Source of the DNA: Synechococcus sp. HK05
Lineage (GTDB): Bacteria > Cyanobacteriota > Cyanobacteriia > PCC-6307 > Cyanobiaceae
Reading direction: 5' to 3'
Assembly (NCBI RefSeq): GCF_019104765.1
Contig: NZ_JAHRXJ010000002.1
Location: 71,069-135,068 of the forward strand
DNA: 64,000 nt
Both the position numbers and the translations under genes were made by a program. The notes beneath the pieces are model-generated. The model was not told the DNA's origin and made no database searches. It worked only from the letters and a program-made list of their open reading frames with translations. This document shows positions 3,349 to 60,701 of the stretch, one piece after another (within the stretch, counting starts at the first letter, position 1; each line of letters begins with the position of its first letter).

Positions 3349-4071
3349 ATGCCCTTGCGGATCCTGCTGGTGGAAGACGAGCCGGATCTGGCTGAATCCC
3401 TGGTCGCCGTTCTGGAGCAGCAGGGCCATGTGGTGGACCACTGCAGCGATGGCCTCTCCGCCTGGACCTTGCTCAGCGGTGATCTGGCGCGCTACGAGCT
3501 GGCGCTTGTGGACTGGATGGTGCCGCAGCTCAGTGGTGTTGAGCTCTGCCGGCGCCTGCGCGCCGCAGGCTTCACCGTGCCGGTGTTGTTGTTGACGGCC
3601 CGCGATGGCACCGCCGACCGGGTGGAAGGACTCGATGCGGGTGCGGACGACTACCTGAGCAAGCCGTTCGCCATGGAGGAACTGCTCGCCCGGGTGCGCG
3701 CCTTGCAGCGCCGCCATCCGGGCTACCGCGAACCGCAGCTGCAGGTTGGCAGCTACAGCCTGGATCCCTCCCGCAGCGAGCTGACGGTGCAGGCGCCAAC
3801 TGGCGCGGTGCGTGTGCCGCTCTCGGCCAAGGAATTGCAGCTGCTCACCTATTTCATGGAGCACTCCGGAGACATCCTCAGCGGTTCCCGCCTGCGCAAC
3901 CAGCTGTGGGACCTGCATCAGGACCCGGTGAGCAATGTGGTGGCGGCGCAGGTGCGGCTGTTGCGCCGCAAGCTCGCCGATCACGGTCTGCCGTCGCCGA
4001 TCACCACGGTGCCCTCCCGCGGCTATCGCTTTGATGCAGACGCCACGGGCAGCGCCTTGCAGCCGAGCTGA
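3349..4071 (+). CDS. OmpR-family response regulator
   Basis: This is a two-domain DNA-binding response regulator of normal length (240 aa). The receiver domain has the acidic pair in LLVEDEPD, a phosphoacceptor Asp at about residue 55 (LVDWMVPQ), LLTARD and the conserved Lys in LSKPFAMEELL. The C-terminal winged helix ends with VPSRGYRF, typical of the family. The stop overlaps the kinase start as TGATG, so the pair forms one operon. It is transcribed away from the RND exporter and resembles the RppA/NrsR type that controls nickel or other metal export in Synechocystis. The controlled metal here is unknown. Confidence 0.95.
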   Translation: MPLRILLVEDEPDLAESLVAVLEQQGHVVDHCSDGLSAWTLLSGDLARYELALVDWMVPQLSGVELCRRLRAAGFTVPVLLLTARDGTADRVEGLDAGADDYLSKPFAMEELLARVRALQRRHPGYREPQLQVGSYSLDPSRSELTVQAPTGAVRVPLSAKELQLLTYFMEHSGDILSGSRLRNQLWDLHQDPVSNVVAAQVRLLRRKLADHGLPSPITTVPSRGYRFDADATGSALQPS

Positions 4072-5351
4072 TGGCAGGGCTTGAGCACAACTTGATCCGG
4101 CGTGCACGTCTGCGGCTGGCGGGCCTCTCCCTGCTCGTGATGGGGAGCATCCTCTATGCAGCGGGATTCTCGATGGGCCGGCTGTTGCTGCAGGCCCAGG
4201 AACAGGCCCTGCAGAGCGAGCTGGTCAACCTGGCCGGCACCCTGCACGACAGCCTCAAGCCCGTGCTCCCGCCGCCCTCAGCAGGACCTGCCTCACTGGC
4301 CACGGTGCTGCCAGGGCTTTGCCTGGCGGATCGCCCCTGCCCTGTGCCCACAACCCTGATCGAGCGCCATGCGCTCGGCGTCACCGATCCGGAACGGTTT
4401 CAGCTGCAGATCCTCAACGGTGAGGGAGAGGTTGTGGCCACATCCCCACCATCTCGGGAGCCAACCCCCGGTTCGCTGATGCTCACCACCAGCGTTGTGC
4501 TGCACCGCTCTCACGGCGATCAGGAACAGGACTGGGGCAGCTTGCGCCTCAGCCGCAGCCTCGCTGGCCTGGAGGCGGAGGCACAGCGCCTGTGGTGGCT
4601 CGGCCACGGCGTGTTTGTGCTGGCCTTGGTGGTGATCGCGCTGGCGAGCTGGTGGCTGGCCGGCCTGGCGATGGCACCGTTGATCGAGGCCTACCAGCGC
4701 CAGGAGCAATTCAGCGCGGATGTGGCCCATGAGCTGCGCACGCCCCTGGCCAACTTGCTTGCTGTTGCTGAGGCTCAACGTGCCCAACCTGGAATCGAGC
4801 GGGTTCTGGCTCAGGGCCAACGGCTGCAGCAGCTGATCGCCGATCTGTTGCTACTGGCCAGCCTGGAGCGGCCCGGCGCCAAGACGCCGATGCAGCGCTG
4901 CGACCTGGCTGAGATCACAGCGGATGTTGTGGAGGACTGGTCCGAGATCGCGGTGGCATCGGAGCAGACCTTGTCGATGGCGCTGGAAGCAGAGACCACC
5001 ACGCTGCGCGGAAACGAGCGGGAACTGAGCCGGCTTCTGATCAATCTGATCAGCAATGCGCTGCAGCACTCACCCTGTGGTGGAACGGTGGAAGTGCGCC
5101 TGGAAACTCAGGGCCGCTGGTTGGCTTTGAGCGTTCGCGATCAAGGCCCCGGCATCTCGCTGGAGGATCAACAGCGGATCTTTGAGCGCTTCACACGCCT
5201 GCAACCGGATCGCTCGCGTCAGAACGGCGGCAGTGGCCTGGGGCTGGCCATCGCTCAGGCGATCGCCAACCGCCATGGGGGAGAGATCCGCGTGGCGTCA
5301 GAACCGGGGCACGGAGCCACATTCACGGCACTGCTGCCAGCGGCCGGCTGA
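4071..5351 (+). CDS. Sensor histidine kinase
   Basis: This membrane-bound sensor kinase partners the upstream response regulator. A transmembrane segment at about residues 18-40 and a second at about 176-200 bracket a periplasmic sensor region of about 130 residues; that region contains LCLADRPCPVP, two cysteines that could bind metal. HisKA follows with the phosphoacceptor His at about 220 (FSADVAHELRTPL). The ATPase domain has the N box (LLINLISNALQHS), G1 (VRDQGPGIS) and G2 (NGGSGLGLAIAQ). All catalytic boxes are intact. It resembles RppB/NrsS-type kinases. Ligand identity is not visible. Confidence 0.94.
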   Translation: MAGLEHNLIRRARLRLAGLSLLVMGSILYAAGFSMGRLLLQAQEQALQSELVNLAGTLHDSLKPVLPPPSAGPASLATVLPGLCLADRPCPVPTTLIERHALGVTDPERFQLQILNGEGEVVATSPPSREPTPGSLMLTTSVVLHRSHGDQEQDWGSLRLSRSLAGLEAEAQRLWWLGHGVFVLALVVIALASWWLAGLAMAPLIEAYQRQEQFSADVAHELRTPLANLLAVAEAQRAQPGIERVLAQGQRLQQLIADLLLLASLERPGAKTPMQRCDLAEITADVVEDWSEIAVASEQTLSMALEAETTTLRGNERELSRLLINLISNALQHSPCGGTVEVRLETQGRWLALSVRDQGPGISLEDQQRIFERFTRLQPDRSRQNGGSGLGLAIAQAIANRHGGEIRVASEPGHGATFTALLPAAG

Positions 5352-5366
5352 AGCCGTCCAATCGCC

Positions 5367-5397
5367 TTGACTCTCCACCTACTGGAGACCATACGGT
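5367..5397 (+). promoter_or_regulatory. MerR-family promoter/operator for the DUF411-oxidase operon
   Basis: A -35 TTGACT (5367-5372) and a -10-like TACGGT (5392-5397) are separated by 19 bp, the over-long spacer that MerR regulators correct by DNA distortion. Between them is a dyad with CTCC and GGAG arms. The arrangement resembles the CueR/copA promoter. The core TTGACTCTCCACCT recurs at 8451, beside the merR gene, so the same regulator probably controls both. Confidence 0.75.
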
Positions 5398-5420
5398 TGA
5401 TGGAGATGCCTGATCCCGTG

Positions 5421-5867
5421 ATGCCCACGCTCCCTCTGGCCCTCGCTCTGGCGGGCCTCTCCGTAGCGGCCACCGCACCTAGCCACGCCGCAGAGGTCGT
5501 GGCGGCCTACCGCTCCGCCAGCTGCGGTTGTTGCAAGGGCTGGCTCGATCACATCAGGAAAGCCGGCTTCACGGTGCAGGACCACGTCGTGAACAACCTG
5601 CCGGCGATCAAGCGGCGCTACGGCGTTCCCGGCGCCCTCGGCTCCTGCCACACCGCCACGATCAACGGGTATGTCATTGAGGGCCATGTACCGGTGTCGG
5701 CGATCCAGAAGCTGCTCAAGGAGCGCCCCAAGGTGGCTGGCATCGCCGTGCCCGGCATGCCCCTGGGCTCACCCGGCATGGAGTCGACGCTGCGGAGTGA
5801 GACCTACACCGTGTTCACCTTCACCAGAACAGGGGTGATCAAGCCGTTCCAGACGGTGAAGGGTTGA
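5421..5867 (+). CDS. DUF411 family metal-binding periplasmic protein
   Basis: This small exported protein has a hydrophobic signal segment (PLALALAGLSVAATAP) and then the DUF411 domain. Visible hallmarks are the cysteine cluster ASCGCCKGW and the downstream SCHTATINGYVIEGHVP. Members are linked to copper or other metal resistance. The open frame extends up to a TTG at 5367, but that would place the start inside the -35 of the MerR-type promoter. A start at ATG 5421 (or 5406) is therefore more reasonable. It is the first gene of an operon with the glutaredoxin/MauE fusion and the multicopper oxidase; its stop overlaps the next ATG. A metal-chaperone or sequestration role is inferred. Confidence 0.85.
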   Translation: MPTLPLALALAGLSVAATAPSHAAEVVAAYRSASCGCCKGWLDHIRKAGFTVQDHVVNNLPAIKRRYGVPGALGSCHTATINGYVIEGHVPVSAIQKLLKERPKVAGIAVPGMPLGSPGMESTLRSETYTVFTFTRTGVIKPFQTVKG

Positions 5868-6643
5868 TGGAGCAGACCCCGCTCAGTAGCAGCGCAGCTC
5901 TGCGCGATGTGCGGCTCTACCGAATGGACACGGCTGATCACGCCTGCCCGTGGGGGCTGCGGGCAGTGGCCCTGCTGCAGAGCCAGGGCATTGCGTTTGA
6001 GGACCACCGCCTGCGCAGCCCTGAGGAGGTGGAAGCGTTCAAACGCGCCCACGGGGTGAGCACCACCCCGCAGGTGTTCAGCGGCCCGGAACGGATCGGT
6101 GGCTACAGCGATCTGGCGGCACGGCTGGGGGTTCGGGCCGAGCGAGCAGATGTGAGCTACACACCGGTGATTGTCGTGTTTGCCACCGCGGCCTTGATGG
6201 CCCTTGCCCTTGGCGTGGGTGTGCGCGGCTTCATGGGCCTGGCCATCGCTCTGCTGGCGATGCTCAAGCTGATGGATGTGCCCGCATTTGCCGCCAGCTT
6301 CCTCAAATACGACCTGCTCAGCCAGCGCTGGCGAGCCTGGAGCCGCCTCTACCCAGGCATCGAACTATTGGTGGGGCTGGGCATGCTCACGCCGCCGTCA
6401 CCCTTCGGTCTGGATGGGCTGGTGGGAGCGGTGGCGGTGGTGTTGGGCGGAATGGGGATGCTGTCGGTGGGCAAGGCGGTGTTCATCGATCACCTCGCCC
6501 TCAATTGCGCCTGCGTGGGCGGCAACACGCGTACACCGCTCGGCGTGGTGAGTTTTGCCGAGAATCTGATCATGACTCTGATGGGCGCGGCGATGGCACT
6601 GGATGCCGTTGCTCATCGCTTGCCGTGGAGTGGATTGCCATGA
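5867..6643 (+). CDS. Glutaredoxin-MauE-like membrane fusion protein
   Basis: The N-terminal ~90 residues look like a glutaredoxin domain: an active-site-like CPWG at about residue 27, TTPQVF with the cis-proline, and GGYSDLAA. After that come about four predicted transmembrane segments of the MauE/DoxX type, with a Cys-x-Cys pair near residue 214 (NCACVGG). The redox motif has only one cysteine (CPWG), so monothiol chemistry or relay to the membrane Cys pair is possible. ATG 5867 overlaps the stop of the DUF411 gene, and the oxidase start overlaps its own stop. It may keep metal-site cysteines reduced or support maturation of the oxidase; this is inference. Confidence 0.78.
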   Translation: MEQTPLSSSAALRDVRLYRMDTADHACPWGLRAVALLQSQGIAFEDHRLRSPEEVEAFKRAHGVSTTPQVFSGPERIGGYSDLAARLGVRAERADVSYTPVIVVFATAALMALALGVGVRGFMGLAIALLAMLKLMDVPAFAASFLKYDLLSQRWRAWSRLYPGIELLVGLGMLTPPSPFGLDGLVGAVAVVLGGMGMLSVGKAVFIDHLALNCACVGGNTRTPLGVVSFAENLIMTLMGAAMALDAVAHRLPWSGLP

Positions 6644-8061
6644 ACCGCCGCTCGTTTCTGGCCTTGACGGCCGGTGGCGCTGCCGCCGCTTCTGCAGGGC
6701 TGGTGGGTCAGCGCTGGCTGAGTCATGCCCGTGAGGTCGCAGCGGCCGGTGCCTCTACGGCTGTGCGATCCAGCCAAGGCGTTCTGAACCTGGATCTCGT
6801 CGCGCAGGAAACGCGGATCGCGATCCCAGGAACGGCTGGTCGCGCTCTCACCTACAACGGCCTGTTGCCAGGGCCGTTGCTGGAATTAGAGGCTGGTGAC
6901 GCTGTACAGATCCTTCTGCACAATCAACTCAGACAACCCACCAACCTTCACTATCACGGCCTTCATGTCTCGCCAGAGGGGAATGCCGACAACGTCTTTC
7001 TGAGTGTTCAGCCCGGGGCCAGCCAGAGCTATTCCTTCCGGATTCCGGAGGATCACCCTGCCGGCCTGTTTTACTACCACCCCCATCACCACGGAACGGT
7101 GGCCGATCAGGTGTTCGGCGGGCTTGGTGGTGCCCTGATCGTGCGCGGCGCTCTCGACCGCATTCCGGAGGTGCAGGCCGCCCAGGAGGAGGTGCTGTTT
7201 CTCAAGGATCTCCCAGCCGACCGGGAGCCATCGATGGGTGGAGCGATGCTTGGCCGCGAGGGTTCCGTGCTCACCGTGAATGGGCAGGTGAACCCCAGGA
7301 TTGAGATCCCTGCCGGGGGATTACTCCGGCTGCGATTCGTGAATGGCTCCAATGCACGCTTCTGGCGCCTGGCGCTGGAAGGGCATCGTCTTCATCTGAT
7401 CGCTACTGATGGCGGTGCACTGGAGCGGCCGTTTGCCGTGGAGGATTTACTGCTGGTACCCGGTGCACGCGCCGATGTGCTTGTGCAGATCTCACCGACT
7501 GGCGGACGATTCCGCTTGCGCAATCGCGCCTACAACCGCATAGGACGCTCGATGATGGGTATGGGACGGATGATGGCTTCCTCCCAGGGTGAGGAGACCA
7601 TTGCCACGGTTCAGACCGATGGCGCCACAACGCCAAAGCCGCTCCCTCAACAACTGCTTCCCGTCCAGCCGCTCAACAATCCGGTGCGCACGCGCCGCTT
7701 TGTGATGAACCATGGCATGGCCCCCGGCATGGGCATGGTGTTTCTGATCAACGGGCAGGCCTACGACCATCAACGCATCGATACCCGCGTGCGCCTGGGT
7801 GAGATCGAGGAGTGGGAGCTGGTGAATACCGGAGTGATGGATCACCCCTTTCACGTGCATGTCAACCCCATGCAGGTGATCAGCCGCAACGGACAGCCGG
7901 AGCCATTCCCGGCCTGGCGCGATGTGGTATTGGTGCGCGCCGGTGAAACGGTGCGGGTGCGAACGCAGTTCCGCGATTTCCCTGGTCGCAGCGTGTACCA
8001 CTGCCACATCCTCGATCACGAGGAGCTGGGCATGATGGGCAACCTCCTGATTGAGGCCTGA
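6640..8061 (+). CDS. Multicopper oxidase, Tat-exported (CueO-like)
   Basis: The N-terminus MNRRSFLALTAGGAAAASAG is a twin-arginine signal. All four copper-binding motifs are present: NLHYHGLHVS (H104, H106), FYYHPHHHG, HPFHVHVNPMQ, and HCHILDHEELGMM with the type 1 Cys, His and axial Met. A Met-rich insert (RSMMGMGRMM and GMAPGMGM) recalls the Met-rich regions of cuprous oxidases such as CueO. The start at 6640 gives a proper Tat peptide and an ATGA overlap with the upstream gene; an upstream extension lacks one. Length (473 aa) is normal for three-domain oxidases. Periplasmic Cu(I) detoxification is the most likely role. The gene ends one base before the convergent merR gene. Confidence 0.93.
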   Translation: MNRRSFLALTAGGAAAASAGLVGQRWLSHAREVAAAGASTAVRSSQGVLNLDLVAQETRIAIPGTAGRALTYNGLLPGPLLELEAGDAVQILLHNQLRQPTNLHYHGLHVSPEGNADNVFLSVQPGASQSYSFRIPEDHPAGLFYYHPHHHGTVADQVFGGLGGALIVRGALDRIPEVQAAQEEVLFLKDLPADREPSMGGAMLGREGSVLTVNGQVNPRIEIPAGGLLRLRFVNGSNARFWRLALEGHRLHLIATDGGALERPFAVEDLLLVPGARADVLVQISPTGGRFRLRNRAYNRIGRSMMGMGRMMASSQGEETIATVQTDGATTPKPLPQQLLPVQPLNNPVRTRRFVMNHGMAPGMGMVFLINGQAYDHQRIDTRVRLGEIEEWELVNTGVMDHPFHVHVNPMQVISRNGQPEPFPAWRDVVLVRAGETVRVRTQFRDFPGRSVYHCHILDHEELGMMGNLLIEA

Positions 8062-8502: not shown

Positions 8503-9207
8503 ATGCGCCTTCTGCTTGCACTCGCGGCCTCCGCGACCCTTCTCGCGCCGCCGGTCCTGGCTCAATCAGGCCAGGAGCACCACGATCATGGGCAACACGC
8601 CATGCCGATGCCGACAAGCGGCTCAAGCGACCATGGCGCCCACAGCAGTCATGGCCATGACGTGGGTCCGGCTGGCAGCACCTACGACCTGCGCTGGATC
8701 GACGCGATGGTGCAGCACCACACCGGAGCGCTGCGCATGAGTGAGTTCGTGTTCAACGTGGGCTCCCCGGGAGTGGGGGCTCTGGCGAACACCATCTGGA
8801 GCGATCAAGCCCGCGAGATCAAGGCGATGGGGCAATGGCGCAAAGCTTGGTATCCGCAGGCGCCCGTGTATCCGGTGACGCTGCCGCCGGGCGGCGACCC
8901 CAACAGCCTGGCGGCGCTGCGGCGCATGTCCACCGCGCAGATCGCAGCGATGCAGATGGCCGGCACGGCGCCCAGCCCCGACACACGGGTGACCTGGTTC
9001 CTGGAGGGGATGATCGCCCATCACGGCGGAGCGTTGCAGATGGCCCACGACGCCCTGGACAAGAGCAGCAACCCCACCATCCGCCGCCTTGCGCGGGAGA
9101 TCATCGTGGCCCAGCGCCGCGAAATCCTTGAGCTGCGGCGCATGCTCCGCCACGACGGTCTCAACAAGCCTTCCTATTACCAGTACGACGCGCTTTTTTC
9201 CCTGTGA
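8503..9207 (+). CDS. DUF305 family secreted metal-binding protein
   Basis: A signal peptide (about residues 1-20, ending PPVLA) is followed by a His/Met-rich stretch (QEHHDHGQHAMPMP, AHSSHGHD) suited to metal binding. Two DUF305 repeats follow, each with the M-x2-HH-x3-AL-x-M signature: MVQHHTGALRM near residue 69 and MIAHHGGALQM near 168. DUF305 proteins fold as ferritin-like helical bundles and are often found in copper-resistance loci. It is the first gene downstream of the MerR operator, and its stop overlaps the next gene's GTG. A periplasmic copper storage or shuttle role is likely but not proven. Confidence 0.9.
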   Translation: MRLLLALAASATLLAPPVLAQSGQEHHDHGQHAMPMPTSGSSDHGAHSSHGHDVGPAGSTYDLRWIDAMVQHHTGALRMSEFVFNVGSPGVGALANTIWSDQAREIKAMGQWRKAWYPQAPVYPVTLPPGGDPNSLAALRRMSTAQIAAMQMAGTAPSPDTRVTWFLEGMIAHHGGALQMAHDALDKSSNPTIRRLAREIIVAQRREILELRRMLRHDGLNKPSYYQYDALFSL

Positions 9208-9775: not shown

Positions 9776-11935
9776 GTGAGCCGAGAAGGCTTCTCCGCCA
9801 CATCGCATCTGGCCTTGATGGGTGATCCGTGGAACGAGGCCGGCCATTGGCTGTGGAGCACAGCATCCGACCCATGGCTGTGGATCGAGGTCTTGGAGAG
9901 CGAGACGGCTCCACGCCTCCAGCTTCTCGATGGCAATCAGGCGGCTCTGGATCGCCTGGGGTGTTCAGATCTGCCGGCCTTGCAGCGCACGTTCTCCCAG
10001 GCCTTGGCAGAGCCTGGCCAGAGCCATTGGTTGGCTCAAGCTATGCAGCAAGGCGATGTTGCGTTTGCTTGGCGCTACCCAACGGCAGATGGTGGTGAGT
10101 GGCGCGAGCTGCAGTGCAGGGCGCATCGGTTTCAGATCGGCGGCTCCACGCTGCTGTTGATGCAGTGCACGGGGACCGATGACCTGGATCGCTACCGCCA
10201 GGAAGCTGATCGCCAGGCCGAGCGCTACCAGATGCTCTTCCAGGGATCCCTGGATGCGGTGGTGCTGCTCACCGACGATGCCCGCATCATCGATGCCAAC
10301 GACGCTGCCCCTGCGCTGTTCGGCTATCAGGATCGCGCCGCATTCATTGCATCCTCATTGCCGGACTGGATGCCAGAAGTCCAGCCCGATGGCACCCCCA
10401 GTGCTGAGGGTTCATTTCAGATGGTCCAGCGTTGCTACGAGCAGGGGAGTGGGGAATTCCAGTGGCAACATCGCCGCCATGATTCCGGAGAGCTGTGGTT
10501 TGGGCAGGTGCTACTGCAGCGGATGAAACTCTCAGAAGGGGCAATGATCATTGCACGCGTTCGCGATATCAGCGAACGCCAGCGGTATGAGCAGAAGCTG
10601 TTTCGCCTTGCCTACAGAGATGCGCTCACGGGTCTCCCCAATCGATCCGCCACCTTGGCCTGGTTGGAGGAGCAGAGGCAGAGCGATCAGGAGATGCGCT
10701 GGCTCTTGATCAACCTCGATGTGGATGATTTCAGAGCGATTAATGATTCCTTTGGTCAGCAATGTGGTGACCAACTGTTGATCGCCTTGACCAAACGGTT
10801 GCAAGCGCTGTTGCCGCCTAGTGCGTACTTGGCCCGCTTGGGCAGTGATGAATTTCTGGTGGTGATCGCTGAGGGATCTGCTGCGGACGCTGCGCCAGGC
10901 AGGCAGAAGGCCGAGGAGTGGTGTCGCCAGATTCAGGAGCTGGCGCGAACTGACATGCGAGGCGAGCAGGAATTTCCCCTGCTGTTCAGCCTCTCGCTGG
11001 GTGTACTCCTTGAGCGGGAAGCTCCTGGCGGCGCCTTAGAAATGCTCAGCCGTGTGGAATCAGCCTTGCAGCAAGCCAAGGAGTCGGGGCCGGCTTCGGT
11101 TCAGTTCTATGACGCCGATCTCTCGCGGTTGATTCAGCGCCGGCTGGAGCTGGAGCAAGAGATGGAGATCGCGCTGGTGGAGCAGCGCTTTCATCTGATG
11201 TATCAGCCTCAGGTGGATGCGCAGCGCCGCATTGTTGGTGTTGAGGTGTTGCTGCGTCTCACCAGCTCCGGGGGGCAACCTGTCAGTCCGGCGGAATTTA
11301 TTCCCCTGGCTGAGCGCACCGGGCAAATCCATCGCCTTGGCGCCTGGGTGCTTCAGGCCACCTGTTTCCAATTGGCGGCGTGGCGGGAGCAAGGCTTGTT
11401 GGTGCCGGATGTCTCCGTGAATGTGTCAGCGCGCCAATTTGAGGATGCAGCGGGCATCCCACCTCTGCTCGAGCAGCTGCAGAGTCAGCTGGACTGTTGT
11501 GGTTTGTCGCCCGATCAGCTCTGCCTGGAAATCACGGAAACAGCCCTGCTCAAACAGGGCCCGAAGCTCCAGCAGGCTCTTGAAGCAATCGTGGCAGCTG
11601 GTTTTTCTTTTTCTCTCGACGACTTTGGCGCCGGCTATTCATCCTTCTCTCTCATCCGCGATTTTCAGCTGGCTGAGTTGAAGGTGGACAAGAGCTACGT
11701 GGATGCGATCGAAGCATCACATCAGAACCGCTCCATTGTGAAGGCGATGGTGGAGATGGCGGAAGCCGAATCCATCCGTCTCGTGGCTGAGGGCGTTGAA
11801 ACGGAGTCGTAGTTTGCGGCGCTCAAGCAGTTAGGCGTGCCGCGTTTCCAGGGCTACCTGTTTGCTAAGCCCCTCAGTGCAGAGGCGTTTGAAGCGTTAC
11901 TGCTTCAGCAGCAGGGACGATCTCTTGATTCCTGA
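9776..11935 (+). pseudogene. PAS-GGDEF-EAL protein interrupted by an amber codon
   Basis: The frame opens at GTG 9776. It holds a PAS domain (about residues 150-250), a GGDEF domain whose signature is LGSDEFLVV, and an EAL domain with EVLLRL, NVSARQF, CLEITETALL, DDFGAGYSS, LKVDKSY and VAEGVETE. TAG at 11810-11812 then stops the frame. The same frame continues for 40 sense codons (FAALKQLGVPRFQGYLFAKP and on) to TGA at 11933-11935, exactly the missing EAL C-terminus. One base change (CAG to TAG) explains it. The GSDEF site departs from the catalytic GGDEF. The product is therefore either a truncated cyclic-di-GMP protein or a recent pseudogene; a sequencing error or readthrough cannot be excluded. 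Confidence 0.88.
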
Positions 11936-12324: not shown

Positions 12325-13098
12325 TCATCGGCGGGGCAGACAGTCTATGACTTCTCTGTTCAGGGTTCTCTGATCATCCACCTGCGCTGCGCATCTTGCC
12401 GGAATTGACAGAAGCCGATCCCTGAACAGCCGTGCTTCTGCCCATGCTTTGCTTTTAACCTCTGCTGCAGAGGCAAGCTCTTTACTTGTGATACGTGCCC
12501 TGAGTTGATGGAGGCGAGCGCGGTAGTGCTCGAGCCAGATCCGGCAATGGGTTTCAGATTGCTGAGGATCCAGTGACTCTTCTTCTGGCAGGGGGGATAC
12601 ATCCGGCGTAGGTGAATCAGCCAGTTCTATCAACAACGCATGGATCGACTGACTCAGAGTCTGGAAAGCCTCCTGCCTCCCTAGGCCGAGTATCAAGGAT
12701 GCGACTTCCTCGAGCCAGCTTTCAAGTCGGTGTTCAAGATGGGCAAGGAGCTTTTTTCGTGCCTCAGCGACCTCACTGGCGAGGACATGCTGTTGCTCGA
12801 GAGCAAGCACTTGCTGCTTGAGTTCCTGCCCTTGCCAGTACAGACGCTGCTGACGCTCACGGCGTAGCCGTTCACGGTCACTGAGTTGTTCCACTGGGGT
12901 AGCACCACAGTGGAGATCAGCCCATGCCTCTTGCAAGAGCTCCAAGTTGATCGCCATTGCCTGTCTGGGCCCAGGCTGTTCCACCACCGCAGCAGTGAGG
13001 GAGGGCTCACTCTCCAGTAAACGCGAAAGGCTGGTGGGCGGTATCCCAAGGGCCTTGGCTGCGGCTCTGAGGCTGACAGTGCCTGTGGTTGCAGTCAT
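12325..13098 (-). CDS. Nu1-like terminase small subunit (probable)
   Basis: This 257-residue protein starts with an HTH-like segment (SLRAAAKALGIPPTSLSRLL). Long charged helices follow, and the C-terminal part contains ITSKELASAAEVKSKAWAEA with RLLSIPARCAAQV. That pattern (x-L-V-x3-E-V, Trp, then R-x-RLL-x-IP-x-R-x-A) is characteristic of Nu1-type phage packaging subunits. It begins 3 bp after the previous gene and is the last gene of the island operon. A small terminase without a large subunit is typical of satellites that divert a helper phage's packaging motor. The family call rests on pattern recognition; a plain DNA-binding coiled-coil protein is the alternative. Confidence 0.6.
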   Translation of the reverse strand: MTATTGTVSLRAAAKALGIPPTSLSRLLESEPSLTAAVVEQPGPRQAMAINLELLQEAWADLHCGATPVEQLSDRERLRRERQQRLYWQGQELKQQVLALEQQHVLASEVAEARKKLLAHLEHRLESWLEEVASLILGLGRQEAFQTLSQSIHALLIELADSPTPDVSPLPEEESLDPQQSETHCRIWLEHYRARLHQLRARITSKELASAAEVKSKAWAEARLFRDRLLSIPARCAAQVDDQRTLNREVIDCLPRR

Positions 13099-13101
13099 TG
13101 T

Positions 13102-13605
13102 TCAAACCATGCTGGCCAGTAGTTCAGGTAGCCCCACGATCAGCCCAACCTTCTCTCCCCACACTCCGGCTGCAAGCATGGCCCAAAACTGCATCAGAGC
13201 CTCTGGCGATGCATGGTAGGGGTTCTGCCCACCGCAGAGATGGGCGGGTAGTGATGGCAATCCCTCATGAAGTGTCCAGGGGAGAACTGCTTCGATGGGG
13301 CAGGTTCCTGCGCCACTCGCTTGTAGTTGCCTGTAGGCGGTCATGCTTTGGTCGCTGACCAGCCAGGCACGCACCTGATCGCCATGGGTATCCAAGGTGT
13401 AGCCAGCCAAGGCAGTGCCATCGAGTGGTTCACAGCCAGTAGGCAACACGAACTCCCGCACCCAGGGTGGGTCGCTCTCGCCTTCCAAGAGCCACACCAA
13501 CTTCATCTCATCTGCCAGGCGGGTGCGGTTCTCAGGTCGCCAACTGGGCGTCGGCCACACCCCAGTAGGTAAGTGGATGCCATCCAACAGTTCAGGGATC
13601 GTCAT
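13102..13605 (-). CDS. Hypothetical protein of the island
   Basis: I do not recognise this 167-residue product. It is Trp- and Pro-rich, acidic, and has no signal peptide; the C-terminal end is hydrophobic (ALMQFWAMLAAGVWGEKVGL). It overlaps the preceding 53-codon frame by 14 bp and ends 3 bp before the terminase-like gene. It is therefore part of a tightly packed operon, and its translation is probably coupled to its neighbours. Composition is consistent with real coding sequence. It could be a helper-interference or packaging protein, but nothing in the sequence shows this. Confidence 0.6.
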   Translation of the reverse strand: MTIPELLDGIHLPTGVWPTPSWRPENRTRLADEMKLVWLLEGESDPPWVREFVLPTGCEPLDGTALAGYTLDTHGDQVRAWLVSDQSMTAYRQLQASGAGTCPIEAVLPWTLHEGLPSLPAHLCGGQNPYHASPEALMQFWAMLAAGVWGEKVGLIVGLPELLASMV

Positions 13606-13753
13606 GACAGTTCTCGAGACAATTGAGGGCAGCGTGGGCCAGGGCGATGCAGCGATTGAGCGAGTGCACGATTAACTCCAGTTGCAAGGCATCAGGCTGC
13701 GGCGCTGAAGCTGGCATACAAAGCCAGCGGTGAGTCATGCGGATGTCCATCAT
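13592..13753 (-). CDS. Small hypothetical protein of the island
   Basis: The start ATG (13751-13753) overlaps the stop of the primase gene as ATGA, and the 53-codon frame runs 14 bp into the next gene. The product (MMDIRMTHRWLC... ending CLENCHDDP) is Cys- and His-rich and contains a helical segment (ELIVHSLNRCIALAHAAL). The overlaps at both ends are the main support. No family is recognised. Confidence 0.5.
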   Translation of the reverse strand: MMDIRMTHRWLCMPASAPQPDALQLELIVHSLNRCIALAHAALNCLENCHDDP

Positions 13754-16398
13754 GTGTGCTCGCAAGGGAAGAGAGTCATCTGGTTCAACATGTTCTCCAA
13801 CGGTGGTGCGGCGAGATCCCGGCAATGGGTATCCACCTGAGAGCGAGAAACACCAGCGTCACGCGCTAACAGCCACTGGTGGATGGCACCAGCATCGACG
13901 TCCTGCTTTGCTGCTAACAGGTTCGCCTTGGCCAGCTCCACCCACTCCGCAGCGGTGGCCGGGTGGTCAGGTGATAGTGCCTCTGAAACCCTTTGCTCAT
14001 CCCTCTGGCTGGGATCGTTTGCGGCACAGTCAGTTTTAGCAAAATCAGAGGGTTCAGAGGGTTTGGGGGCCACCTGCTTTTGCTCTGGCTTTTCATTCCC
14101 CAAACTTTGGAGATGAATGGTTTTAGAAAAACCTCCTGAACTATCTGAACCCTCTGTTCCCTCAGTGGTTGCAGGTGATTTGGGTGCAGAGGGTTTAGGC
14201 GCAACCCTCTGATCAGTCAGAGAGTTTGGCTTGACGCCAAGGTGAGCAGCAAGATCGAACTGCGCAGCAGCTTCAATGGCATAGGTCACGCGGGTGTGCT
14301 GCTTACGCACCGATACCAAGTCGGTGAGCTTCTTGATTCGGCGTCCGAATAACGTTTCGCTACCGGCTTGATGACCGGTGTCTTCGCACCAATTGCACCA
14401 AGTGCGATAGAGCTGCCTACCGCCGATTTCGCTGATGCCCTGGGGGAAGGTCTCAATGACAAACCGTGTCACGGGGTTGTTATCCAGGTGTCGCTCTACC
14501 GAGCTTTGGGCAATAGCCTCAATGGATCCGGCATGACGGATCACCCTGATGGCCTCCTCAATGGGAAGGCGATGCGCCCACTGCCAGATCCCTGGCAGTT
14601 CAGCCCGCAGTGCAGCCTTGAGGTTGGGGTCAGGATGCTCCGGACGGTGCCGGAATGGAATCACCACGATGCGGCGATCCAGGCCCTCAACACCACCTCC
14701 TGCAACGGTGGGGCTGTCGTTGTACGCCCGAACCAGGACGACGCCTAGCCGGATCATTCGCTGCTCTTGATAGAGAAATCGCACCAACACGGCCTCGTTA
14801 CTGATCACCTTGTTGAGCAGACCTGCATCACTGAGGTGTCCAGCGGCATCGGTGTCACAAGCCATCAGCTTGCCTACCAGTGCTGCGAGAGAACGGTCGT
14901 CGCAGAATGTCTTGGGGCCACCAGGACCAACCAGATTCTCTCCCACCAGTGCCATCAGGGTCTCGACGCAAGTGCCCTTTCCAGTTCCCTTCCGCCCCTC
15001 GAAGTCAAAGCACTTCTCCAGAGGGAATGGCGTAAGCCGATCTTTGGGTTCCAACACATAGCGAAATACTGCTTGCACCAACGTCATCACTGCAGCGTCA
15101 CCACCACAGGCTTCTGAGATGAAGCCCTCCCAGCGCTGGCAGGTGGCGTTAGGGGCGAAGTCATAAGGCAGGCATCCCACCAGGTAATCACGACGTCGGT
15201 GGTCCCGCAGGCGTCCACTGGCTTGTTCGTAGGTGCCATTGGCGAAGTTGCTCAACCCACCATTTGCCCAATTCTCTTCCTGCACAAGGATGCGATCCAC
15301 TAGTTCCTGGAGCACCGCGTTCTGCACCCCCAGACTGCGCTTCTGCCACCCCTGGCTGTCCATGAATTGATGTAGAACCGGACCCATAACCTTGGTTTCC
15401 TTTCCTGGGAGCTGAACCCAGTGGCTACCTTCCCAATGCATCACGCCAATCCCAGGGCGGATTTTGTAGTCACGTCCCAGCACTGCCGCCGCAAGCACCG
15501 CCTTGAAATGGCTCTCTTCTGGATCCCGAGGGAAATGGAAGACGTACACCTCACGCCCTTCTTTTTTCTTGATGCGGAAGGCGGGTTGTGCAATCCCGAC
15601 CAAGGTTTTCAGTGCGGCAGAGCCGTGGCGGTAGATCAGGTCATCGACTCCGTTCTTCTGCCCATCGAGCTCGCTTGGCAGGCGGATGATCTGAATGTGG
15701 GCACCGCGTTCAATCAGATACTCTGCTAACGCTTGCAAGGCAGCTAGCACTTTGCTATTCAGAGCTGCATCTGAGTCAAAGAGCAGAAATATCTCACGCC
15801 CTTGCACCGGTAGATCCTCTAGCTCTGGGAGCGGTGCACTCTCGTTACCATCACCACGACGATCACGCCAATTCCACACACCAGACAAGCCGATGGTGAT
15901 GGCTTTGGGCCAGTGGATGGTGAGCGCCTCTGCCTTTTTCTCGCCCTCGGTGATCACCAGGGGGACGTTGATATCAGCTAAGCGCTCGAAATACCTGCCA
16001 GTCTGGATGGCGATGTGGGAGTGGTAGAGACGATTACCACACCCCCTTGGACTCAAGTACTTGGGTGTATGTTTAAAACCAGCCACTTTCCGCTGTGCTG
16101 CAGGCTGCGGTTTCCACCGCAGGAAAGGAGTGCCTTGCTTGCTCTCCTCTGGCTGCCCATTAGGCCGAAGGTAGGGTAGAACAAGCTGGCCGCGCCGACC
16201 GGTGTAATAGCCCAGAAGTTGGATCCCTTCTGATTGAATTGCCGACTGTCTGAGTTCATTGATGTGGGCCTGACTCAGGCACTTGTGCTGCCAGCAACGC
16301 TCCACATGCTCCACTTGTGTGTGCCGCAGCGAAGCGGAGCGTTTCACAGTTGCCTGCGTAACTGTGGCGTGATACCTCTCGAGTTGTTTGCGTGTCAT
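13750..16398 (-). CDS. Primase/helicase (DUF3854 TOPRIM-like plus SF3-like ATPase)
   Basis: The 882-residue replication protein starts at ATG 16396-16398; an upstream TTG (16440) would add 14 residues and include a hairpin. A TOPRIM-like DUF3854 domain shows ITEGEKKAEAL near residue 150 and LLFDSDA near 208. A P-loop, GRKGTGKGT, lies near residue 468 in a D5/SF3-like helicase region, with LMACDTDAAG further on. A linker of about 150 residues rich in Pro, Ser and Glu follows; the C-terminus has a short helical segment. This architecture is common in satellites and phages that initiate their own replication. Its stop overlaps the next start by ATGA. Confidence 0.85.
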   Translation of the reverse strand: MTRKQLERYHATVTQATVKRSASLRHTQVEHVERCWQHKCLSQAHINELRQSAIQSEGIQLLGYYTGRRGQLVLPYLRPNGQPEESKQGTPFLRWKPQPAAQRKVAGFKHTPKYLSPRGCGNRLYHSHIAIQTGRYFERLADINVPLVITEGEKKAEALTIHWPKAITIGLSGVWNWRDRRGDGNESAPLPELEDLPVQGREIFLLFDSDAALNSKVLAALQALAEYLIERGAHIQIIRLPSELDGQKNGVDDLIYRHGSAALKTLVGIAQPAFRIKKKEGREVYVFHFPRDPEESHFKAVLAAAVLGRDYKIRPGIGVMHWEGSHWVQLPGKETKVMGPVLHQFMDSQGWQKRSLGVQNAVLQELVDRILVQEENWANGGLSNFANGTYEQASGRLRDHRRRDYLVGCLPYDFAPNATCQRWEGFISEACGGDAAVMTLVQAVFRYVLEPKDRLTPFPLEKCFDFEGRKGTGKGTCVETLMALVGENLVGPGGPKTFCDDRSLAALVGKLMACDTDAAGHLSDAGLLNKVISNEAVLVRFLYQEQRMIRLGVVLVRAYNDSPTVAGGGVEGLDRRIVVIPFRHRPEHPDPNLKAALRAELPGIWQWAHRLPIEEAIRVIRHAGSIEAIAQSSVERHLDNNPVTRFVIETFPQGISEIGGRQLYRTWCNWCEDTGHQAGSETLFGRRIKKLTDLVSVRKQHTRVTYAIEAAAQFDLAAHLGVKPNSLTDQRVAPKPSAPKSPATTEGTEGSDSSGGFSKTIHLQSLGNEKPEQKQVAPKPSEPSDFAKTDCAANDPSQRDEQRVSEALSPDHPATAAEWVELAKANLLAAKQDVDAGAIHQWLLARDAGVSRSQVDTHCRDLAAPPLENMLNQMTLFPCEHT

Positions 16399-16427
16399 GA
16401 TGGGTACTGAAAATACATTGATCAACG

Positions 16428-16451
16428 CCCCGGCTCGCAACCGGGGTTTTT
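16428..16451 (+). terminator. Intrinsic terminator hairpin on the plus strand
   Basis: CCCCGG (16428-16433) pairs with CCGGGG (16441-16446) around a 7-nt loop, followed by TTTTT (16447-16451). It points in the + direction, opposite to the island genes, and lies just upstream of the primase start. It would end an antisense transcript or protect the primase promoter region. Confidence 0.6.
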
Positions 16452-16528
16452 GTTCTGCTCATGCGGACGGCCCAAGAGCGGAGGAGCCATCAACTTCAAA
16501 ACACACCAGCTACTTCTTCTGCTTTTCT

Positions 16529-16732
16529 ATGTGGGAACCAGCTGAGCAGATGCCGCGAGTTGAAATTGACTGGTCACTAGCAAAACCAGGATGCTTTTGC
16601 CATTTGGGCAGCATTGAGGCCTTGAAATCCCAGCCCAAACCGAATAGAAAAGGACAAGCTCTGACCGCAGAGCAGATAGGCAACTTGGGTCGGGAAGCCA
16701 GGCTGGATATTTTTGGGGTAAGTACGATGTAA
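16529..16732 (+). CDS. Possible small protein in the divergent gap (uncertain)
   Basis: The 379-bp gap between the primase and excisionase-like genes contains no minus-strand frame but has this plus-strand frame of 67 codons. The product includes RVEIDWSLAKPGCFCHLGS and ends EARLDIFGVSTM. It is not recognised and no strong ribosome binding site is visible. The rest of the gap probably holds the primase promoter. I report it only as a possible gene. Confidence 0.25.
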   Translation: MWEPAEQMPRVEIDWSLAKPGCFCHLGSIEALKSQPKPNRKGQALTAEQIGNLGREARLDIFGVSTM

Positions 16733-16777
16733 ACAGTCAGTTCAGCCTTACTTCCTTGGTTTCGCAGGGGGGCTTAT

Positions 16778-17014
16778 TCAGGGCCCCGTCAGCTCAAGTG
16801 TGCGATGGTCGCGTGCAAACGCTTCCGTCATTGTCCTATCGCACTGCTCTAGGTGATAAAGGAGGGGCGAATTGTTAGTGGGGAACTTGCGCCTGTAATG
16901 GGTGCCCGCCTTGAGAAAGCCAGCTGTGCGCCAGCGATGAAGAGTTCGCTCGCTAACACCAAGCAAGCTCGCGGCGACCTTTTGGGGCTGCCACGAAGAA
17001 TCCAGATTTTTCAT
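16778..17014 (-). CDS. Excisionase-like MerR/AlpA-type HTH protein
   Basis: The 78-residue protein contains a small winged-helix motif: WQPQKVAASLLGVSERTLHR followed by WRTAGFLKAGTHYRRKF and YHLEQCD. This pattern is typical of excisionase/AlpA-like DNA-binding proteins that bind helix-turn-helix targets near attachment sites. A good ribosome site (AGGAAG) lies a few bases before the ATG at 17014. It follows the small unknown gene by 9 bp and precedes the primase gene. In related islands such proteins control excision or switch on replication; that role is inferred. Confidence 0.78.
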   Translation of the reverse strand: MKNLDSSWQPQKVAASLLGVSERTLHRWRTAGFLKAGTHYRRKFPTNNSPLLYHLEQCDRTMTEAFARDHRTLELTGP

Positions 17015-17023
17015 TATTTCTTC

Positions 17024-17248
17024 CTAGAGAGCTCCTTCTGCCTTGAGCGCAGCTTTTAGTGGCAGTGCACTCTGCCCCCAGCTAGTCAGGTAGCTGTGAA
17101 TATCTTTCTTGCTCATTGATCCAGCCTCAAGTCGCGATACGAAAAAGCGCGCTGTGGCTATCGCGTGAGCGGAAGAATTTGATTTGCGCTGCTGGGAGGC
17201 AGGTACGTCAATTCTCTGTTTGTTTGTGTAGCGACTCCGAGACCTCAT
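17024..17248 (-). CDS. Small basic hypothetical protein of the island
   Basis: The 74-residue product starts at ATG 17246-17248, preceded by AAGGAA at proper spacing; a longer reading without such a site exists upstream. The N-terminus is strongly basic (MRSRSRYTNKQRIDVPASQQ) and the C-terminal half is helical (ATARFFVSRLEAGSMSKKDI). It stands first in the island operon, 9 bp before the excisionase-like gene. It might be a regulator, but no family is recognised. Confidence 0.55.
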   Translation of the reverse strand: MRSRSRYTNKQRIDVPASQQRKSNSSAHAIATARFFVSRLEAGSMSKKDIHSYLTSWGQSALPLKAALKAEGAL

Positions 17249-17597
17249 GACTGGTTCCTTCGATTGGTTGTTTGGAAACAGCCGCTTCGGGAAGAAGCCC
17301 CAATCTTCGTTCCAGCCGGTTGGCAGCCGTGGCCCCGAGCGCATTTGCGCCTCGACTGCCGACCTCAAGGGCTACCAGCCGAATTGGTCTATGCATATTA
17401 GCTCGGTTTGTCCAGGGGTGGCGTGACAACCCCTGCCTGCTGTTCTCCGGCGCTAGATGCGGTGTTGACGATCGGGGAGTCGCTGACCGTAGGACGGGCG
17501 GCGGACCCGGCGTCCACTGCGGGCAGACAGGACCGTCAATTAGGTCGCTTGGGTGCATTTTGGGTGCACCTGCGATGTCGATTCCCTGAAAAGTCAG
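17249..17597. other. Gene-free right end of the island
   Basis: Open frames here are Pro/Arg-rich and do not look like genes. The stretch likely holds the island promoter and recombination sites, including the GGGTGCA repeat pair near 17550 just outside the tRNA 3' end. No integrase can be assembled from any frame. Confidence 0.4.
17550..17568. repeat. Tandem TGGGTGCA repeats near the tRNA end
   Basis: The octamer TGGGTGCA occurs at 17550-17557 and 17561-17568 (11-bp pitch), 30 bp from the tRNA 3' end. Position and spacing fit arm-type sites for a tyrosine recombinase or excisionase. This is inference from position. Confidence 0.35.
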
Positions 17598-17671
17598 TCG
17601 GGGCGACAGGATTCGAACCTGCGACCTAGTGCTCCCAAAGCACCCGCGCTACCAAGCTGCGCCACGCCCCG
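17598..17671 (-). tRNA. tRNA-Pro (anticodon UGG)
   Basis: On the minus strand a full cloverleaf can be drawn: a 7-bp acceptor stem (CGGGGCG with CGCCCCG), D-arm GCGCAGCTTGGTAGCGC, anticodon stem GGTGC/GCACT around loop TTTGGGA (anticodon TGG), and T-arm with GGTTCGAATCC. CCA is not encoded. The 3' end faces the satellite-like island, the usual attachment site position. Confidence 0.97.
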
Positions 17672-59729: not shown

Positions 59730-60701
59730 TTAGGCCTCCAGGTAGTCGATCACCCGATCGGAGAGGCGGCGGATCGCTGCATTGGCACGCCGCTCCATGC
59801 CCCGTGCTTGGTCGCGGCTGAGCCCCATCTGCCGGGCCGCGGCGCTGAGGTTCATCGGGGTGGGTTGATCGATGCCATAGCGCAGCCGCAGCAATTCAGC
59901 TTCCTGCTCCGGCAGCTCATCGAGCAGGGCCACGAGGTCGGTCTGCAGATGGGCCGCGGTGAGCTGATCGCTGGGCAGCTGGGCGTCGCAGCGCAGGGTG
60001 TCGAGCAGGCGCAGGTCGTCGTCCTGGCCGTGGCTGCTGTCGAGGCTCAGGGGTTCCTGGGCGCGGAACAGGGCTTCACGGATATCGAGCACTTTGAGCT
60101 CGGTGGCTTCAGCCAGCTCCTCGAGGTTGGGTTCACGGCCCAGCATCTGGCGCAGCTCCTGCTGGCAGCGACGCAAGCGCTGCAGGCGATCCTGCATGTG
60201 GGCCGGTAAGCGGATGCTGCGGCTCTGTTGCTGCAGGGCACGCCCCATGCCCTCCCGGATCCACCAGGTGGCGTAAGTGGAGAACTTGTAGCCGCGGGTG
60301 GGATCGAAGCGCTGCACCGCCCGGATCAGCCCAAGCGTTCCCTCCTGGATCAGATCCTCGAGATCAAGGCGCCGGTGGCTGATGCGGCGCGCCAGGCTCA
60401 CCACAAGCCGCAGGTTGGCGGTCACCATGCGCTCACTGGCGCGTTCCGCCAGCTTCAGTTCGCGCTGCAGCTGGCGGGGCGTGAGCTGCACATTGCTGGC
60501 CCAGGATTCCAAGCTGGGCTCCTGGCCGCCGGAGCGGAGTTTGAGCTCTTCAGCCGCTTCGAGCAGGCGCCGGCCGTTTTGCACGGCACGGCCCAGGCTG
60601 ATTTCCTCGTCAGCGGAGAGGAGCGGAATACGGCCGATGGCACGCAGGTGCCGGCTGATTGCGTCGCAGTCTCCTTTGCGGAGCTTCTGTGGCGCAGGCA
60701 T
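59730..60701 (-). CDS. Group 2 sigma factor (RpoD-like)
   Basis: The 323-residue factor has region 1.2/2.1 (ISRHLRAIGRIPLLSADEEI), region 2.2-2.4 (LEDLIQEGTLGLIRAVQRFD and FSTYATWWIREGMGRALQQQ), region 3 and region 4. Region 4.2 reads LSAAARQMGLSRDQARGMER, keeping the helix-turn-helix pattern but diverging from the usual RVRQIE core. Group 2 sigma factors are non-essential and stress- or light-responsive. Which paralogue it is cannot be assigned. Its stop is 10 bp upstream of the bioA start. Confidence 0.93.
   Translation of the reverse strand: MPAPQKLRKGDCDAISRHLRAIGRIPLLSADEEISLGRAVQNGRRLLEAAEELKLRSGGQEPSLESWASNVQLTPRQLQRELKLAERASERMVTANLRLVVSLARRISHRRLDLEDLIQEGTLGLIRAVQRFDPTRGYKFSTYATWWIREGMGRALQQQSRSIRLPAHMQDRLQRLRRCQQELRQMLGREPNLEELAEATELKVLDIREALFRAQEPLSLDSSHGQDDDLRLLDTLRCDAQLPSDQLTAAHLQTDLVALLDELPEQEAELLRLRYGIDQPTPMNLSAAARQMGLSRDQARGMERRANAAIRRLSDRVIDYLEA

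Follow-up and report, generated by a model that had tools for sequence, protein, structure and literature searches.

Limits of the element at tRNA-Pro

The DNA analysed is a 64,000 bp stretch of Synechococcus sp. HK05 (contig NZ_JAHRXJ010000002.1, here C2, positions 71,069 to 135,068), termed the window, whose coordinates equal those of C2 minus 71068. The host's own genome is G000, and the genomes and loci compared with it carry G and L numbers. A block of minus-strand genes adjoins a tRNA-Pro(UGG) gene, as open reading frames and the ARAGORN tRNA prediction confirm. A first-pass annotation of the same DNA had noticed this block, placed its ends at 12325-17671 (5.3 kb) and proposed a phage satellite. 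The ends have to be redrawn: two copies of an attachment (att) repeat bound an island of 22.6 kb that includes copper and efflux genes as cargo (Table 1). The best reading of this integrative mobile element is a cargo-carrying phage satellite, or tycheposon-like element, with a probability of roughly two in three. Its insertion can be read from the sequence; its mobilisation and its helper phage we infer.

The island is arranged in the order attR, integrase, copper/efflux cargo, EAL gene, terminase small subunit (TerS), p167, DUF3854/D5 primase, excisionase-like helix-turn-helix (HTH) protein and tRNA-Pro. The repeat represents the 3′ half of tRNA-Pro(UGG), and its copies attL and attR differ by one mismatch in 59 bp. 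A partner copy inside the window was rejected, as no tRNA-end copy is found there in the 17.5 kb left of the tRNA; nor is there a third copy (≤3 mismatches) anywhere in the 22.6 kb. A search of the own genome with the 27 bp tRNA core, also allowing three mismatches, found four places: exact copies at C2:66039, in the tRNA-Pro itself and at C10:15623, and a copy with 3 mismatches at C14:29597. The reversed control gave 0 matches. The exact copy on C10 is accompanied by an integrase gene of its own, 59% identical to that of the island (C10:1-15649; L175, L059). This pair is near genes for a phage-type exonuclease and sigma factors and a frame that by eye resembles a primase, and it reaches the contig end; no tRNA gene was detected around the copy at C10:5000-24000.

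Of 17 loci from the genus, counting the host's own, 13 have the tRNA-Pro gene next to an M23 peptidase gene; the stretches for the other four are short. As the first-pass annotation had suggested, the site was compared across the genus, and the region beyond the tRNA was followed in eight relatives. In three of these the site is empty, the attR left flank running unbroken into the tRNA (G008, 85% identity over 952 bp; G005, 84.5% over 964 bp; G020, 88% over 391 bp). The others have different content: G013 and G015 display additional tRNA-end copies of their own, 11.3 kb and 2.0 kb away, respectively, and G014, G007 and G023 have other genes at the site, with no tRNA-end copy within the 15-16 kb examined. 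The tRNA-Pro site is thus an insertion hotspot. Tandem tRNA-end copies 22.6 kb apart, a putative recombinase adjacent to the distal one and three empty relatives show a complete att-flanked element integrated at a tRNA gene. Just outside attR, at L103:14540-14730 (minus strand; C2 about 65.6-65.8 kb), there is a paralog of the island's HTH gene, situated in the flank common to the empty-site genomes G008 and G005. It represents a resident Xis-like gene beside attB and is perhaps a relic of an earlier element.

The integrase, a putative tyrosine recombinase, is encoded directly inside attR, 4.9-3.6 kb left of window base 1. It matches phrog_1 (5e-10), and its PF00589 score of 23.2 bits is below the cut-off of 27.1. 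Residues R254, Y359-x-x-R362, H385 and Y394, which we take to be the tyrosine recombinase catalytic set, are common to all five aligned integrases. A Pfam search of the own genome listed five other integrases and missed this one. The impression of an integrase-less island, formed in the first pass, came from the window edge and from this miss and is rejected, and with it the suggestion of a remnant needing an integrase in trans; the accompanying statement that large terminase (TerL) and capsid genes are lacking is supported, S-CBS1 structural proteins and two types of TerL having no match in the island. As the standard Pfam integrase search missed this gene, other "integrase-less" islands in these genomes need rechecking. 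One such candidate (L042, in G069) was rejected when the integrase and distal att copy were located 12-13 kb from the tRNA. In L050 and L052 no integrase of this kind is present in the stretches examined; they are not called integrase-less here, because the integrase of the present island lay beyond the window. The nearest relatives of the integrase are in records of Cyanobium and Synechococcus.

Replication and packaging genes and their relatives

The minus-strand frames run away from tRNA-Pro: a small protein, the HTH protein, the primase-helicase, p167 and TerS. The small protein resembles, by eye and without BLAST support, 64-77-amino-acid proteins at the same place in L043 and L044. The HTH protein matches the putative excisionase family PF06806 (1.1e-4), PF12728 (6e-6) and the excisionase family phrog_539 (4.2e-4), in agreement with the regulator proposed in the first pass; the DUF3854 primase/helicase named there is likewise confirmed, with D5_N and Pox_D5 in addition. 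p167 has no match in Pfam, PHROG or PADLOC. The 257-amino-acid protein that had been called a small terminase belongs by profile to a packaging family (phrog_57), and its residues from about 178 to 254 form a phage-like C-terminal domain. None of the frames for the integrase, HTH protein, primase and TerS is interrupted. PHROG scans of island frames other than the RND pump, permease, sensor kinase and EAL gene found no head, portal or TerL family. The frame p77 (13592-13825), which overlaps the primase end, is regarded as spurious because DUF5044, the family that it matches best (0.0038), has a cut-off that it does not reach; a 53-residue protein mentioned in the first pass could not be singled out. 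The G + C fraction of the module is 0.562, compared with 0.659 for the window right of 17700.

Table 1. Features of the island and its limits; plain coordinates refer to the window, those with C2 to the contig
Feature	Position	Strand	Basis and remarks
attR, distal partner copy of 59-bp repeat	C2:66022-66080		5.0 kb left of window base 1
Integrase, tyrosine recombinase, 415 aa	C2:66175-67422	+	directly inside attR
EamA permease	C2:68357-69601		beyond left window edge; EamA 7e-30
Membrane-fusion protein	C2:69432-70631		beyond left window edge; HlyD_3 3e-19
RND efflux pump, 1040 aa, N-terminal part in window	1..2692	-	crosses left window edge; ACR_tran 6e-40 on C-terminal part
Response regulator and sensor kinase (two-component system)	3349..5351	+	cargo
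DUF411 protein and glutaredoxin/MauE-domain protein	5367..6643	+	cargo; homologous block in G013 tRNA-Pro island
Multicopper oxidase	6505..8061	+	cargo
DUF305 protein	8503..9207	+	cargo
PAS-GGDEF-EAL gene, inside island	9776..11812	+	open reading frame, domains
Terminase small subunit (TerS), 257 aa	12325..13098	-	phrog_57 2.3e-9
p167, orphan 167-aa protein between primase and TerS	13102..13605	-	open reading frame
Primase-helicase, 896 aa	13750..16440	-	DUF3854 9.5e-22, D5_N, Pox_D5
AlpA/Xis-like (excisionase-like) HTH protein, 78 aa	16778..17014	-	PF06806, PF12728, phrog_539
Small protein	17024..17248	-	open reading frame; 74 aa from internal ATG, 114 aa from first TTG
attL, 59-bp direct repeat	17583..17641	.	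spans outside tRNA 3′ end through anticodon
tRNA-Pro(UGG), integration target, 3′ half within attL	17597..17671	-	ARAGORN

Primase matches occur in 46 of 197 related genomes, own included, many over the DUF3854 part only. Stretches around the best matches (L042-L052) contain a tRNA gene in nine of 11 cases, tRNA-Pro(UGG) in four. One of these genomes, G069 (Prochlorococcus AG-363-N20, L133), carries a complete tRNA-Pro element with an exact 44 bp distal copy 13.1 kb away. Next to the distal copy the element has an integrase gene from the clade of the island's own (48% identity), and it also encodes a primase (40%) and an 88-amino-acid HTH-like protein; its gene order differs from that of the island, and a TerS is unsupported. 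In L050:9448-12526 (G093) the primase is shortened to 221 amino acids near tRNA-Pro and is followed by several short frames whose translations by eye have the look of double-glycine leaders, as in lanthipeptide precursors.

A TerS gene follows the replication gene in four genomes: in G047 and G097, where it is of another type, and in G052 and G335. The second complete parallel to the island, G047 (RCC307 sequence, L144), is ordered as attR copy of tRNA-Val, integrase, type 2 TerS, primase, HTH, small protein, two further proteins and tRNA-Val. The second TerS type (L051, L052) is present in two tRNA elements with a related primase and matches phrog_34910, annotated as "unknown function". In the Prochlorococcus phages MED4-184 and MED4-117 the gene immediately preceding terL encodes a phrog_34910 homolog, 27% identical to the L051 protein over about 101 amino acids, and because of this position the family is likely to be a small terminase. 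HTH proteins of L046, L042 and L091 were considered as TerS; they are unsupported by PHROG scans and were not counted.

Five of the 300 genomes searched in the family, the host's among them, match the TerS alignment of the island itself. G052 carries the gene twice, as a pseudogene next to tRNA-Ala and immediately behind a VapE-type replication gene. The G335 element is compact and consists of tRNA-Val, an integrase, a replication gene similar to gp41 of Synechococcus phage S-CBS1 (38% over 380 amino acids) and TerS (51% over 98 amino acids). TerL of the S-CBS1 and MED4-184 types, the two covered by the TerL homology searches, has no match in the G047, G097, G052, G335 and G055 stretches, the window, L103, L051 or L052. 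The G055 stretch (L174:7733-16454) comprises an integrase, a helicase, a major head protein, TerS and a PD-Lambda-1 defence gene and is a candidate capsid-carrying satellite. A primase scan of IMG/VR found two loci, L108, which has no other element genes, and L109. The latter, an 8.3 kb contig, has tRNA-Met at its start, a primase relative (38% over 125 amino acids), an S-CBS1-type head protein (30% over 258 amino acids, 7e-16) and neither of the two TerL types; it may represent a capsid-carrying satellite among the collected viruses.

An integrase family and att core shared with S-CBS1-like siphoviruses

Scanning contigs with the integrase alignment found 45 loci (L110-L154). In the near clade (L110-L142, 45-62% identity) 27 of 33 loci have the exact tRNA-Pro core upstream of the integrase match, at a distance of 108-240 bp. 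As to the six misses, L115 and L116 begin <270 bp from a contig end, L138, L139 and L142 match the C-terminal part only, and in L124 the core is absent from 3.4 kb of upstream sequence. The distant clade (L143-L154, 23-28%) has the core in none of 12 loci, and these adjoin tRNA-Ala, -Arg or -Val wherever a tRNA is visible. Ten IMG/VR loci have integrase relatives; the seven strong ones (L155-L161) were checked and six have the core, which in L156 and L160 is beside a second integrase, 31% identical. The integrase tree, which has long branches and some unsure parts, places the host's own integrases within the tRNA-Pro clade and groups L157-L159 and L161 on an adjacent branch; the tRNA-Ala/Arg/Val clade stands separately. 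L155 and L156 are placed among cellular integrases and so may be islands rather than phages.

L161 displays TerL (43% over 610 amino acids), portal (56% over 469 amino acids), head and sigma-factor relatives of S-CBS1 proteins. Its integrase is 44% identical to that of the island, and its att core has phage genes plainly on both sides. L158 and L159 carry the S-CBS1 sigma factor, gp41 and RusA together with core and integrase. In all three the core is between the sigma-factor gene and the integrase, as expected of attP, and they are probably temperate relatives of S-CBS1. With the island they have in common the integrase family and the tRNA-Pro att core. S-CBS1 and L161 also share the TerS C-terminal domain: residues 178-240 match the start of the S-CBS1 record, directly upstream of terL (41% over 63 amino acids), and in L161 the protein directly upstream of TerL matches phrog_57 (1e-20), its likeness to TerS covering the same C-terminal end. 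Unlike the island, L161 has TerL, portal and head genes, and L158, L159 and L161 all have a gp41-type replication gene. S-CBS1-like siphoviruses appear to be the best helper candidates, because these IMG/VR contigs share the integrase family and att core. The S-CBS1 genome of 30.3 kb suggests that the head would hold 22.6 kb without shrinking.

The same likeness in integrase family, att core and TerS C-terminus could mean that the island is what remains of an S-CBS1-like prophage after loss of head and tail genes, and no satellite at all. This is improbable: the primase differs from the S-CBS1-type replication gene, none of 22 tested S-CBS1 proteins, structural or otherwise, matches inside the island, and the gene set is like that of other compact tRNA elements. 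The TerL, portal and capsid genes by which such a prophage would be recognized appear to be missing. S-CBS1 proteins match just two genes in L103 and the window, one for an endolysin, beyond attR, and one for a sigma factor, at 59.8-60.7 kb. The latter (59775-60665, minus strand) is 34% identical to S-CBS1 gp27 and is probably a host sigma factor.

The probable cargo-carrying satellite and the alternatives

The satellite role proposed in the first pass gains support from the packaging family of the 257-amino-acid protein and from a genuine integration site with empty alleles. It is further favoured by the pairs of TerS and replication genes in G047, G097, G052 and G335 and by the complete AG-363-N20 element. 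Several observations weigh on the other side. The packaging role is deduced from homology. Among the 10 genomes that, besides the host's own, match the primase best, a TerS is supported only for G047 and G097. The match to S-CBS1 covers only 63 amino acids (database E 4e-3), weak by itself, and the S-CBS1 record begins inside the terS frame, the start of which is not recoverable across the record ends. A weaker match is that to the L161 protein encoded ahead of TerL (30% over 95 amino acids, E 0.001 among seven sequences). Scanning IMG/VR with patterns from TerS alone or from a two-row alignment gave 13 and 57 matches, respectively, none confirmed, and single-sequence AlphaFold of TerS is poor (pLDDT 51.7). 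The island integrase is without a match in 50,697 phage records. An S-CBS1-type TerL is absent from the own genome and present in only one of 25 genus genomes; a helper would therefore infect from outside. Finally, G + C differs between module (0.562) and cargo (0.646), and the two may therefore have been joined by accretion.

The G + C step is also what two elements stacked at one tRNA would produce, a satellite of about 5 kb (12.3-17.6 kb) beside an older copper island owning the integrase and attR, with the inner att copy decayed. Compact 5 kb satellites of like make-up exist elsewhere, for example in G335 at tRNA-Val, the content of the hotspot varies in G013, G014, G015 and G007, and C10 has a second att-integrase pair. 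Such stacking is nonetheless somewhat unlikely, given that a third att copy is missing from the 22.6 kb and that G047 displays a single att-to-att unit of similar order, with the integrase, TerS, primase, HTH and other genes between attR and the tRNA.

As a cargo-carrying satellite, the island would insert when its integrase recombines attP with attB in tRNA-Pro, the tRNA being kept intact. Phage infection or another signal might then lead the excisionase-like HTH protein to tip the integrase to excision, and the D5-type primase-helicase would amplify the excised DNA. The phage-type C-terminal domain of TerS could dock on the large terminase of the helper to give a hybrid terminase of element TerS and helper TerL, with the differing N-terminal part marking satellite DNA. 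This DNA, with its copper and efflux cargo, would be loaded into helper heads, and the island thus probably hitch-hikes between cells inside cyanophage particles.

A broader hypothesis, tentative and at somewhat less than even odds, is that one tRNA-Pro(UGG) attachment system is common to temperate S-CBS1-like siphoviruses and to satellites that parasitise them. The satellites would keep a helper-type TerS C-terminus and an N-terminal DNA-recognition part of their own, and related elements would swap TerS type to change helper. If so, any cyanophage that suits the TerS would carry metal-resistance cargo in its capsids.

Phage-inducible chromosomal islands (PICIs), including Staphylococcus aureus pathogenicity islands (SaPIs), have their own integrase, an excisionase/AlpA-type regulator, a primase and TerS, and usually no TerL or capsid gene. 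The island has the same set: integrase, excisionase/AlpA-type regulator, its own replication gene and a TerS with a phage-type C-terminus that would redirect packaging, with no TerL of the tested types or capsid gene found. It differs from PICIs in its primase family, cyanobacterial host and 22.6 kb size with metal cargo. A VapE-type replication gene is a PICI hallmark, and one adjoins the related TerS of G052. Tycheposons are characterized by tRNA-gene integration, a tyrosine recombinase, cargo and picocyanobacterial hosts, all of which the island displays. Prochlorococcus single-cell genomes carry related integrase, HTH and primase elements, one of them at tRNA-Pro; the integrase clade of the island includes such genomes, none labelled as a tycheposon. 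Unlike tycheposons, the island has a host nearest to Cyanobium/Synechococcus records by integrase, and its tRNA-Pro integrase clade is separate from the tRNA-Ala/Arg/Val clade. The description of tycheposons in Prochlorococcus-type picocyanobacterial hosts is as cited in PMC10872708 and PMC11389934. The PICMI elements of Vibrionaceae share with the island a core of integrase, AlpA-type regulator and primase (PMC10803314). According to the same paper, a fis gene is a requirement of the PICMI model, and no terS homolog was detected in PICMI115; the island, in contrast, is inserted in tRNA-Pro rather than beside fis and has TerS.

Prochlorococcus and Synechococcus harbour comparable tRNA-anchored elements with a predicted integrase, excisionase and primase, in some cases also TerS, so that "undescribed satellite family", as the first pass had it, is too strong. 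Satellite-like elements of picocyanobacteria have been proposed before, and no cultured helper pair is named for them in the literature searched. That literature, which includes PMC10803314, PMC10872708, PMC11389934, PMC6157547 and PMC10187409, leaves out most subscription papers; it holds no description of this island or of an S-CBS1-like helper, which is no proof of novelty. A concrete pair is indicated here, an S-CBS1-like siphovirus and a Cyanobium-type host.

Cargo genes

The genes between the integrase and TerS (Table 1) suggest by their families a role in copper resistance. PHROG scans of nine cargo frames in the window and one left of it found no structural phage family. A copper block homologous to that of the island, in inverted orientation, is present between the att copies of the G013 tRNA-Pro island (two stretches of 2573 and 1011 bp, 69% identical in nucleotides), which favours its status as cargo. 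The G013 integrase is only 30% identical to that of the present island.

That G013 has its copper cargo in common with the island, as well as an integrase and a pair of att copies, and that no TerS was noticed among its island frames (which had no profile scan), fits a cargo island moved by its integrase together with vesicles, natural uptake or general transduction. Selection would then act on the copper genes, and TerS and the primase would be leftovers of a former satellite; the in-frame stop in the EAL gene is in keeping with this. It is an unlikely explanation, since the integrase, HTH, primase and TerS frames are open and in other elements, too, TerS is found next to a replication gene. 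The stop, a TAG at 11810-11812, is followed by 40 further EAL codons, and it represents either a pseudogene or a sequencing error.

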